Source: Burkholderiales bacterium | GTDB lineage: Bacteria > Pseudomonadota > Gammaproteobacteria > Burkholderiales > Casimicrobiaceae | Direction of reading: 5' to 3' | Assembly (NCBI GenBank): GCA_016790165.1 | Contig: JAEUPL010000037.1 | Span: forward strand, 46,865 to 110,864 | Length of the DNA stretch: 64,000 nt | In this document: positions 15,625-55,542 of the stretch, piece by piece | Layout of the letters: each line of letters begins with the position of its first letter | Position numbering within the stretch: the first letter of the stretch is position 1 | Notes under the pieces: model-generated | Told to the model about the DNA's origin: nothing | Databases searched by the model: none | Seen by the model: only the letters and a program-made list of their open reading frames with translations | Position numbers and translations under genes: made by a program

Positions 15625-15754
15625 TCAGCTTTCGGGCCCTATCGACTGCACGTCCGCGCCTTCACCGTGCTGGGACGCAAAGTCGACTTTCCCGTTTTTT
15701 TGGCGACAACGGCCGCCCGCTGGTCGTTGTATTCGTATTTGAGGCTGAAGCTGT
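15625..15754. repeat. Intergenic element family, copy A
   Basis: First of five copies of a ~120-bp element. The left end TCAGCTTTCGGGCC is the approximate reverse complement of the right end GAGGCTGAAGCTGT. The core is a 12-bp palindrome AAAGTCGACTTT, with GTCGAC starting 57 bp from the left end. A hairpin follows (ACAACGGCC paired with GGTCGTTGT). It fills much of the 305-bp divergent spacer between tctD and the Bug-type gene. Confidence 0.6.
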
Positions 15755-28911: not shown

Positions 28912-29031
28912 ACAGCTTTTTGCGCTCATCGGCCACTCTACAGTCGTTCAGTGCATATTTTTTAATAAGTCGACTTGCTGGGTTTTTCCCATGAAACCAT
29001 TGCTGATCAGTCGATCGGCCAAGAAAGCTGT
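28912..29031. repeat. Intergenic element family, copy B
   Basis: A 120-bp copy starting ACAGCTTTTTGCGC and ending GGCCAAGAAAGCTGT, which are approximate inverted repeats. AAGTCGACTT lies at 28967-28976, with GTCGAC starting exactly 57 bp from the left end. AGTCGTT occurs at offset 30, matching the GGTCGTT of copies C and E. Confidence 0.65.
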
Positions 29032-35561: not shown

Positions 35562-35681
35562 ACAGCTTTTTGAGCCTATCTACCGCTGAGTGGTCGTTCG
35601 ACGCGTAATTTTCTCAATGTCGACTTGGTGTATTTTCTGCAGCAAACCACCTTTGGACGGTGGTTGAAGGCGAAAAGTTGT
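35562..35681. repeat. Intergenic element family, copy C
   Basis: A 120-bp copy beginning ACAGCTTTTTGAGCC and ending GGCGAAAAGTTGT. GTCGAC lies at 35619-35624, offset 57 as in the other copies. GGTCGTT occurs at offset 30. A second hairpin, CAAACCACC-tttggac-GGTGGTTG, precedes the right end. It lies 43 bp upstream of coaBC. Confidence 0.68.
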
Positions 35682-41637: not shown

Positions 41638-41757
41638 TCAGCTTTTCAGCACCATCGACCGATCGACGGCGCTTGTAGCCCATTTCTTTACGAAGTCGAC
41701 TTTACTAAAAACATCGCGCCAACGACCATATTCTGGTGGTTGGCGCGCAAAAGCCAT
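41638..41757. repeat. Intergenic element family, copy D
   Basis: Begins TCAGCTTTTCAGC; GTCGAC lies at 41695-41700, offset 57. The second hairpin is strong: CGCCAACGACC-atattct-GGTGGTTGGCG (10 of 11 pairs). The right end is more decayed (GCAAAAGCCAT). It fills the spacer between the SPFH gene and the YdjG-like gene. Confidence 0.6.
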
Positions 41758-54374: not shown

Positions 54375-54457
54375 CAACGCGGGGCGACGGGCTGCGTCGC
54401 GCGCACGGCCTGACTTCCGGTCACGGCGCTTGCTCCGCCGACGCGACTGAGCGCGCA
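54375..54457. other. Short GC-rich spacer between two repeat elements
   Basis: Rest of the 476-bp gene-free stretch between the dehydrogenase and oxygenase genes, the other parts being the MITE-like element and element copy E. I see nothing coding in it. Confidence 0.4.
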
Positions 54458-54578
54458 ACAGCTTTTTGGCTCCAACGACCAGCTGGCGGTCGTTTGCTGT
54501 CGATTCGCACGGATGTCAACATAGCGCGTTTTTTCGGCTCAAACCACCGACAGGCGGTCAGCGGAGCGAAAAAGCTGT
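54458..54578. repeat. Intergenic element family, copy E (best-preserved ends)
   Basis: 121 bp with near-perfect inverted ends: ACAGCTTTTTGGCTC and GAGCGAAAAAGCTGT. Core GTCAAC at 54515-54520, offset 57. First hairpin AACGACC-agctggc-GGTCGTT (54474-54494) is perfect; the second is CCACC-gacaggc-GGTCAG-like. It sits five bases from the stop of the oxygenase gene and could end its transcript. Confidence 0.7.
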
Positions 54579-54582
54579 GTTT

Positions 54583-55542
54583 CTAGCTACGGGACGCGTA
54601 CGTCGCGTCCAGCCGCTCCTTGAGATACGCCGCGCCCGTCGTGGGTGGGTATTTCACCGGGCGCGCTGCGTTGGTGCAGGTCGGCAGGCATGCCACCACC
54701 GCATCGGGGTTCGGGTCGAGGAAAAACGCAACCGAGAATCGTTCGCGCCCGACGGGGTTGACCACGCGGTGCGGCGTCGAGACAAACACGTCGTTGGTCC
54801 AGCGCATCAAACAATCTCCGATGTTGCAGATGATCGCGCCCGGAATGTTCGGTGCTGCGAGCCACTCGCCCGCGCGCGTGCGCACCTCGAGCCCGCCCGC
54901 GTCGTCGGTCGCGAGCAACGTGAGGTTGCCGTAATCGGTGTGCTCGCCCGCGCCGATCTGACCCGGCTCGAATCGCTCCGGGCGCGGCGGATAGTGCAAC
55001 AGGCGCAGCGTAGCCAGCGGCTCATCGAGCTTGTCATCAAAAAAATCTTCCGCCACGCCCAACTCAAGCGAGAGCGCGCGGTGAAGTTTCATCCCCAACG
55101 CGTGGCAGGCGTCGAAATACGCCAGCATCGTCGTGCGAAACTGCGGCAGCGCCTGCGCGTCCGGCCACACGTTGACACCGCGAAACGGCTTGCCCGCAAC
55201 GATCTCCGGGTGCGTTGGCGGCAAGTCCCAACCGATGTTGAACGCCTCCTTCACGTCGCCGGGCATCGCCGAATTCAAGCGCTCCTCGCCCAGCGCCACA
55301 TAGCCGCGATTGTTGCCCACCCGCTGGATCGAGAGGGCTGCCTTGCTTTGCGCATCAGAGCCAAAGAATGCCTGTGACTGCGCAAACACCGCGGCCGTCA
55401 GCGCAGCATCAATGCCGTGCCCGACGATGACGAAGAATCCGGTGTCACGCGCGGCCGCACCCAGCGCGGCCCCGAGCGCTGCGTTGCCAGCGAAATGCTG
55501 CAAATCGACCCGCGGAATCGTCGTCGAGGTCAGCGCACCCAC
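54583..55542 (-). CDS. 2-oxoglutarate/Fe(II)-dependent oxygenase, isopenicillin N synthase-like
   Basis: A 319-residue protein. N-terminal DIOX_N region (GFFVIVGHGID) and C-terminal 2OG-FeII domain with iron ligands His and Asp in GEHTDYGNLTLL and a second His in STPHRVVNP, followed by the 2OG-binding Arg and Ser of GRERFSVAFF. Substrate unknown. The start is GTG 55542, with a perfect AGGAGG (55550-55555) seven bases upstream, overlapping the ABC-F gene by 13 bp. Longer starts such as ATG 55569 are less supported. Confidence 0.88.
   Translation of the reverse strand: MGALTSTTIPRVDLQHFAGNAALGAALGAAARDTGFFVIVGHGIDAALTAAVFAQSQAFFGSDAQSKAALSIQRVGNNRGYVALGEERLNSAMPGDVKEAFNIGWDLPPTHPEIVAGKPFRGVNVWPDAQALPQFRTTMLAYFDACHALGMKLHRALSLELGVAEDFFDDKLDEPLATLRLLHYPPRPERFEPGQIGAGEHTDYGNLTLLATDDAGGLEVRTRAGEWLAAPNIPGAIICNIGDCLMRWTNDVFVSTPHRVVNPVGRERFSVAFFLDPNPDAVVACLPTCTNAARPVKYPPTTGAAYLKERLDATYASRS

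Follow-up and report, generated by a model that had tools for sequence, protein, structure and literature searches.

Five intergenic elements of about 120 bp that lie in the window (the whole 64,000-nucleotide stretch of DNA that was analysed) are members of a large family dispersed through their genome. The comparisons reported here suggest, with a probability that we put at roughly 0.6, that each element is a composite double-stranded DNA site of a putative protein complex, selected for chromosome organisation and forming a genus-wide array. Intergenic palindromic repeats are usually classed as mobile remnants; here, hundreds of sites with randomised neutral columns, fixed spacing, an even distribution and species-to-species drift speak for a long-lasting function. 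If this is borne out, the family would constitute a countable, sequence-defined set of chromosomal anchor or topology sites, and the co-evolution of a genome-wide site set with one binding machine would become testable.

A sequence-only reading of the window had described five elements that open with [AT]CAGCTTT and have a GTCGAC hexamer 57 bp in from the left end, replaced by GTCAAC in the last copy; for copies B, C and E it also noted [AG]GTCGTT at offset 30. All five were recovered at the coordinates it gave, the first two motifs in five of five copies and the third in the three copies named. The elements, their flanking genes and the anatomy of copy E are as follows.

15625..15754, no strand: copy A, the 120-bp plan with a 10-bp insertion just inside the right end; flanked by a response-regulator gene (minus strand) and a TctC-family gene (plus strand)
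28912..29031, no strand: copy B; flanked by dehydroquinase and redoxin-family genes (both minus strand)
35562..35681, no strand: copy C; flanked by pyruvate kinase and DFP/flavoprotein genes (both plus strand)
41638..41757, no strand: copy D; flanked by two minus-strand genes, the left without a Pfam match above the cut-off, the right of the Band_7/SPFH family
54458..54578, no strand: copy E, 121 bp; flanked by 3-hydroxyacyl-CoA dehydrogenase (plus strand) and 2OG-Fe(II) oxygenase (minus strand) genes, the end facing the latter lying 4 bp past the oxygenase stop codon
54458..54467, no strand: left terminal box of copy E, ACAGCTTTTT
54474..54494, no strand: left arm of copy E, AACGACC, 7 nt, GGTCGTT, an inverted pair of half-sites
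54515..54520, no strand: dyad centre of copy E, GTCAAC (family consensus AAGTCGACTT)
54541..54559, no strand: right arm of copy E, AAACCACC ... GGCGGTC, mirroring the left arm
54569..54578, no strand: right terminal box of copy E, AAAAAGCTGT, the reverse complement of the left box

The sequence-only reading missed that GTCGAC stands exactly at the middle of the 120-bp copies (57 + 6 + 57), and thus that the element, as a near-palindrome with two-fold symmetry, has no orientation of its own. A purely sequence-based model built from the five copies, which matches its own five copies by construction, matches all five on the opposite strand as well (E 1e-14 to 9e-7). The 130-bp copy A is the 120-bp element with 10 extra bp.

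The genome to which the window belongs (G000; 3.76 Mb in 41 contigs) holds many more copies. A search of it with the five-copy model returned at least 150 scored matches, both strands counted, and 31 places were found in 448.8 kb made up of the window and two other contig stretches. In 1.247 Mb, one third (33%) of the genome, there are 90 copies with aligned lengths of 108–129 bp, or one per 13.9 kb, plus one weak partial match; the contigs were picked for length and were already known to hold matches, and the window with its five copies is included. By extrapolation, the whole genome would contain about 270 copies. Scanning for the frame formed by the ends and the centre gave 83 matches in the 1.247 Mb of G000 and 6–31 in five other genomes, against 1 and 0, respectively, in base-shuffled sequence, which excludes chance. 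The absence of further copies, which the sequence-only reading had named as grounds for rejecting its claim, was therefore not what was found, and the five-copy observation is confirmed as real and as part of a large family.

The copies are built to a strict plan. In a profile built on 165 of the 180 G000 halves, a half-element has CAGCTTTT on the outside, separated by about 8 nt from an arm of the form ACGACC, about 7 nt, GGTCGTT; farther in come an A/T tract and one half of AAGTCGACTT. In these 165 halves the terminal box always stands equally far from the centre. The 15 that deviate comprise four right ends displaced by exactly 10 bp (roughly a helical turn), six ends displaced by 1 bp, one by -11, and four, from two copies whose centre is poor, displaced by 7 or 9 bp. 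Motif columns of the G000 profile reach 2 bits, and columns 53–55 carry only 0.01–0.09 bits. By eye, one arm in each of two G000 copies (C33 near 44,340; C18 near 201,900, L073 1876-1995) forms an intrinsic-terminator-like hairpin followed by a T-run, and that of the C33 copy is common to G012.

The copies lie between genes and favour gene 3' ends. According to a simple custom gene caller, 89 of the 90 G000 copies overlap a called gene by no more than 60 bp. The 88 copies with both neighbours (two at stretch edges were left out) face 100 gene 3' ends, 70 of which have their stop codon within 50 bp, and 76 gene 5' ends, 18 of which have their start codon that close; between tandem genes, the stop is nearer than the start in 34 of 50 cases (p = 0.008). 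Convergent spacers are enriched, with copies in 23 of 144 of them against 65 of 735 others (p = 0.014; p = 0.075 against divergent spacers alone), and 13 copies lie between divergent genes.

The sites are also more evenly spread than chance would have them. The coefficient of variation (CV) of the gaps in G000 is 0.639, against 0.924 +/- 0.095 for random spacers matched in gene context (0 of 5000 draws as even) and 0.920 +/- 0.088 when random spacers of 120 bp or more were drawn (0 of 2000 as even), and only 8 gaps fall below 4.5 kb where 21.6 were expected. Thus, the non-random chromosomal distribution that would be expected of a chromosome-organising site is present in the G000 stretches sampled. 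Gap CVs for four other genomes, for which no null distributions of their own were drawn, are 0.61 (G012), 0.69 (G015), 0.55 (G008) and 0.42 (G001, five gaps), and site density in the sampled species is one per 9–17 kb. The G005 stretch, likewise without its own null, is not evenly spaced as it stands, with a gap CV of 1.21, or 1.48 with a broader scan. The high value stems mainly from one gap of 105 kb (C1:110,311-215,434, tiles L179-L184), the next largest being 31 kb. Of seven proteins taken from about 15 kb of this empty stretch, five have strong matches to defence families (PglZ, BrxHI, PglXI, HerA and SIR2), one a weak match and one none, and the 105-kb stretch may be an acquired island. 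It includes a BREX-like defence locus (PglZ, BrxHI, PglXI) with HerA and SIR2 as neighbours.

Among relatives, the layout persists and the arms change. Of the 17 genomes of the genus, 11 have the frame GCTTTT-N(44-52)-GTCGAC-N(44-52)-AAAAGC, with 2 to 90 exact matches each (2 in G009), and a reversed-pattern control gave 0. In 399 genomes drawn from the order, four outside the genus have one frame match each and six have one match to the reversed control, and because the control yields a similar count, the out-of-genus matches are background. Similarly, the five-copy model found matches in 10 of 40 genomes including G000 and in 0 of 23 outside the genus. Within the common frame, the arms are CGACC..GGTCG in G000 and G008, GGGC arms in G005 and G012, and TGACC..GGGGCT in G015. 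The pattern GGGC-N23-TCGA-N23-GCCC has 169 exact matches in G005, 118 in G006, 116 in G013, 111 in G012 and 77 in G007, against 0–7 in the other 12 genomes of the genus and 0–3 in 43 family genomes of other genera, with 0–2 for the reversed control; widening the gap from 23 to 25 gives a background count of 0–6 per genome. In G007 the frame is absent, and the layout is found with at most one mismatch in 5 places in 61.7 kb (shuffled mean 0.15) and as 47 matches to a half-pattern with an AT-rich centre (1 in the control). The same half-pattern is suggestive of the layout in G010 (6 against 1 in the control) and has 0–2 matches in G002, G009, G011, G014 and G016. Collectively, these searches place the layout in at least 12 of the 17 genus genomes, matches being few in G004 and G009; as far as searched, the element appears restricted to this one genus, whose remaining members may carry a drifted form. 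G006 seems to hold elements of two kinds, centred on GTCGAC or on TTATCGATAA, and may represent an intermediate stage in the drift of the centre. The arms of G013 share, by eye, unusually long identical stretches (GCGCATCCATAACGGGCTTGG), perhaps through recent duplication or a tighter binding specificity.

Many of the sites have a counterpart at the matching position in a relative. Synteny placed 8 of the 90 G000 elements against a G012 stretch, and six of these have an element in the same interval, one a degenerate one (by eye) and one none; against a G008 stretch, two of five projected elements were matched. In the reverse direction, 11 of 22 G012 elements could be projected, of which 6 have a G000 partner and 5 do not, some of the latter where gene content differs. 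Seven genomes in which both fabH and fabD were found allow one spacer to be followed: the element is present in G000, G005, G012 and G015, a drifted form in G007 and, with 2 mismatches, in G010, and G009 was not judged. Kinship between the genomes rests on FabH identities. The arms differ between species at the shared sites. The simplest account of shared intervals with differing arms is that many sites were inherited vertically while the recognised sequence drifted everywhere, and the unpartnered G012 elements (5 of 11) indicate that whole elements were also gained or lost.

These observations are most readily accommodated by a candidate binding site of about 116–121 bp with two-fold symmetry, in each half of which a terminal box (CAGCTTTT), a two-half-site arm and an A/T tract stand at set distances from a central palindrome that contains TCGA and is shared between the halves. 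A protein complex, itself dyad-symmetric, would contact the terminal boxes, the arms and the centre, and would probably wrap or bridge the DNA; sites just downstream of genes and evenly spread would serve as anchors, boundaries or topological control points. The even spacing and the placement at gene 3' ends lead us to infer action on the scale of the chromosome, and the binding of a complex, its two-fold symmetry and its chromosome-organising role are all put forward in this conditional sense. A bolder form, which we offer tentatively and would rate below even odds, is that the genus possesses a grid of several hundred nucleosome-sized dyad anchor sites for the putative complex, akin to a bacterial insulator or loop anchor, whose specificity drifted and whose sites followed, often without leaving their spacers. 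MatS, parS, SlmA and Noc sites are familiar cases in which one DNA-binding system acts on the chromosome through many dispersed sites, and the present family resembles these in its many dispersed sites for a putative single chromosome-acting system. Those sites are short (about 13–20 bp) and regionally restricted or clustered, whereas the element described here is 120 bp long and evenly spread in the G000 stretches sampled. The view of the sequence-only reading that this is a selected, extragenic family whose spacing is fixed and whose sequence drifts is supported by these data, as is one of the options it had raised, a protein-binding array. Counting against the preferred reading are the excess folding seen in column-permutation and arm-swap tests (below), the small left-right matching in four other species (below), the uneven gaps of G005, the gain and loss of elements and the alternative origin that even spacing could have in the transposition immunity of a mobile element.

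A MITE- or REPIN-like element moved in trans, with even spacing produced by target immunity or purging and motif conservation by selection for mobility, is rather unlikely, although the copies are dispersed and intergenic, have inverted terminal boxes and differ in presence between relatives. Ancestry, target duplication, left-right pairing and folding were analysed in the 77 of 90 G000 copies whose ends both lie at the unshifted distance. In 36 low-information columns, pairwise identity among these copies is 0.337 against 0.336 for a column-permuted null, and the most similar pair, at 0.611, falls within the range of null maxima (0.556–0.639). Thus, no two of the 77 look like recent duplicates, and with neutral columns at null identity, selection best explains the columns that are conserved. 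Direct flank repeats of 3–10 bp, a check that the sequence-only reading had proposed, are found at the nominal ends in 0 of 77 copies; 2-bp repeats number 8 against 7.0 by chance, and shifting the ends produces no consistent excess, the largest being 2 against 0.2 (4 bp, shift -1, overlapping the terminal box). In the third of G000 surveyed, half-element matches number 178 inside elements and 1, a weak one, outside, and matches to the outer 40 positions number 188 inside and 4 outside, against 3 in one shuffled copy; element fragments are absent there and solitary ends all but absent. As to a parent transposon with matching ends, that one weak solitary half is all that the surveyed 33% offers. 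A decaying mobile family would be expected to leave fragments, singlets, subfamilies and even decay, none of which is seen in this third, so that the decayed MITE family suggested by the sequence-only reading is disfavoured by the missing fragments and target duplications, the lack of a recently related copy pair, the near-absence of solitary ends and the uneven decay, with motif columns at up to 2 bits and neutral columns near 0. Some half-elements of G013 have long identical stretches by eye and could be recent copies.

The occurrence of RAYT-type Y1_Tnp genes in 15 of the 17 genomes of the genus speaks for mobility. The two G000 matches (C7:97470-97796 and C12:1372-1722) lie about 6.8 and 3.8 kb from the nearest elements found (at C7:90,676 and C12:5,561), and Y1_Tnp is present in G002, G011 and G014, where no clear element was found, and missing from G009, which has a few frame matches. 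REPINs accompany RAYT genes flanked by copies, and singlets (PMC3116915); like the present family they number hundreds of intergenic copies with two inverted palindromic arms per unit (PMC3116915). A REPIN is disfavoured for the third of G000 surveyed, where no RAYT gene is flanked by copies: the element here differs in its fixed spacing around a conserved centre, in the near-absence of singlets, in 77 copies without recent shared ancestry and in Y1_Tnp genes unflanked by the copies found. GTAG/CGTC-tagged palindromic repeats are 20–40 bp units with an end tag and are likewise short, palindromic and intergenic, often form inverted dimers and in some cases have no dedicated transposase (PMC3733652); the element here, at 120 bp, instead combines a terminal box, an arm and a centre whose mutual distances are fixed.

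Closer in size is ERIC (IRU), a family of about 120–127 bp intergenic imperfect palindromes present in many copies in other taxa. The likeness in length, imperfect palindromy, intergenic location and copy number was assessed by description only, as was the distinction: ERIC copies resemble each other throughout, whereas copies of the present element share only the motif columns. The papers listed for the literature searched, which left much subscription literature outside its coverage, included no description of the element.

Under the preferred reading of a composite protein-binding site, the most concrete candidate protein is a gyrase-type topoisomerase, and strong type IIA topoisomerase (gyrase) sites are a live special case, if on balance an unlikely one. 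The GyrA arms would wrap the flanks, the central TCGA would be the 4-bp cleavage region and evenly distributed sites behind genes would remove transcription-driven positive supercoils. The E. coli gyrase motif is 130 bp long and symmetric, with a 4-bp cleavage centre and G/C-periodic flanks at 10.75 bp (PMC6379681). Length and dyad symmetry are similar, as are a near-10-bp component of composition and a link to transcript 3' ends, in comparison with this motif, strong gyrase sites and BIME-2 as there described (PMC6379681), and placement behind stop codons together with enrichment in convergent spacers fits sites of gyrase need. A 9.5–10 bp component is present in the A/T profiles of all six species sampled, and in five no other period tried is stronger; in G000 a block permutation equalled it in 3 of 2000 cases. 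The best period in G000 is 9.75, an 8-bp period is the stronger in G012, and in G005 and G012 the peaks beyond 20 bp outward (about 24, 31, 37, 44, 53 and 60) are spaced by about 7 bp, not 10.75. In addition, the E. coli motif is degenerate, whereas the boxes here are specific in their bases and vary from species to species, and attraction of gyrase downstream of transcription is, according to the same source, seemingly not hard-wired in sequence (PMC6379681).

An RNA element at transcript 3' ends, acting as a bidirectional terminator or as a processing or stability element through arm hairpins and T-runs, is improbable. It would explain why copies sit just past stop codons and why the consensus arms of G000 are inverted repeats followed by an A/T tract, and the sequence-only reading had spoken of compensating stems, which are not supported. 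In the 77 copies, the halves do not compensate for each other: left-right pairing is 0.531 within copies and 0.530 between them (z = 0.18), and the fold energy is -40.97 for real and -40.79 for half-swapped elements (z = -0.31), as expected if one and the same protein reads both halves. The arms show at most a weak effect, contributed by a minority. The local arm pair count is weakly above chance (z = 1.86, p = 0.037), and real arms fold better than swapped ones (mean z -2.8 to -3.3), but after GC matching the mean z is -1.7 and the median 0.0, so that the median arm has no excess. Moreover, the same kind of swap effect is larger in spacers without elements (z = -6.7) and missing from short flanks (z = 0.5). 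Column-permuted chimeras do fold worse, at -37.4 kcal/mol against -41.0 for the real whole element, with 0 of 40 runs as stable and z of about -4 for the arms; given the null result of half-swapping, left-right pairing is not the cause of this excess, and the remainder is local.

Before length matching, left-right matching reached nominal significance in three of four other species; after it, the excess is small and positive in all four (z 0.87–1.84, n 9–15, with slid controls reaching 2.36). The length-matched tests used 72 of 83 frame-scan copies in G000, 9 of 23 in G005, 15 of 31 in G012, 13 of 20 in G015 and 10 of 12 in G008. By eye, the outer and inner arm motifs are non-complementary in G013 and only partly complementary in G015 and G001. 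An RNA element would give no part to the central palindrome or the terminal boxes, and it sits poorly with the 13 copies between divergent genes. Rfam returned 0 matches at the gathering score in the window, and for 54380-54660 there were 0 at E <= 1. Structure at the RNA level is thus disfavoured as the main constraint, and the long stem that RNAalifold proposed from five copies has an unfavourable covariation term and finds no support from the 77. The sequence-only reading had staked its case on covariation and on spacing better than random; the spacing is indeed better than random, and the covariation is nearly absent. Taken together, the folding tests speak for elements that are recognised as double-stranded DNA; a minority of arms also fold well and may have a role as hairpins, and terminator-like hairpins are visible by eye in two copies.

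Finally, operators of a global transcription regulator, although they would likewise be dyad-symmetric, base-specific and prone to drift by species, are very improbable, as the sites are evenly spaced, lie at gene 3' ends and are seldom beside starts, and nine of the ten genes flanking the five window copies have Pfam matches above the cut-off, with functions that are unrelated.
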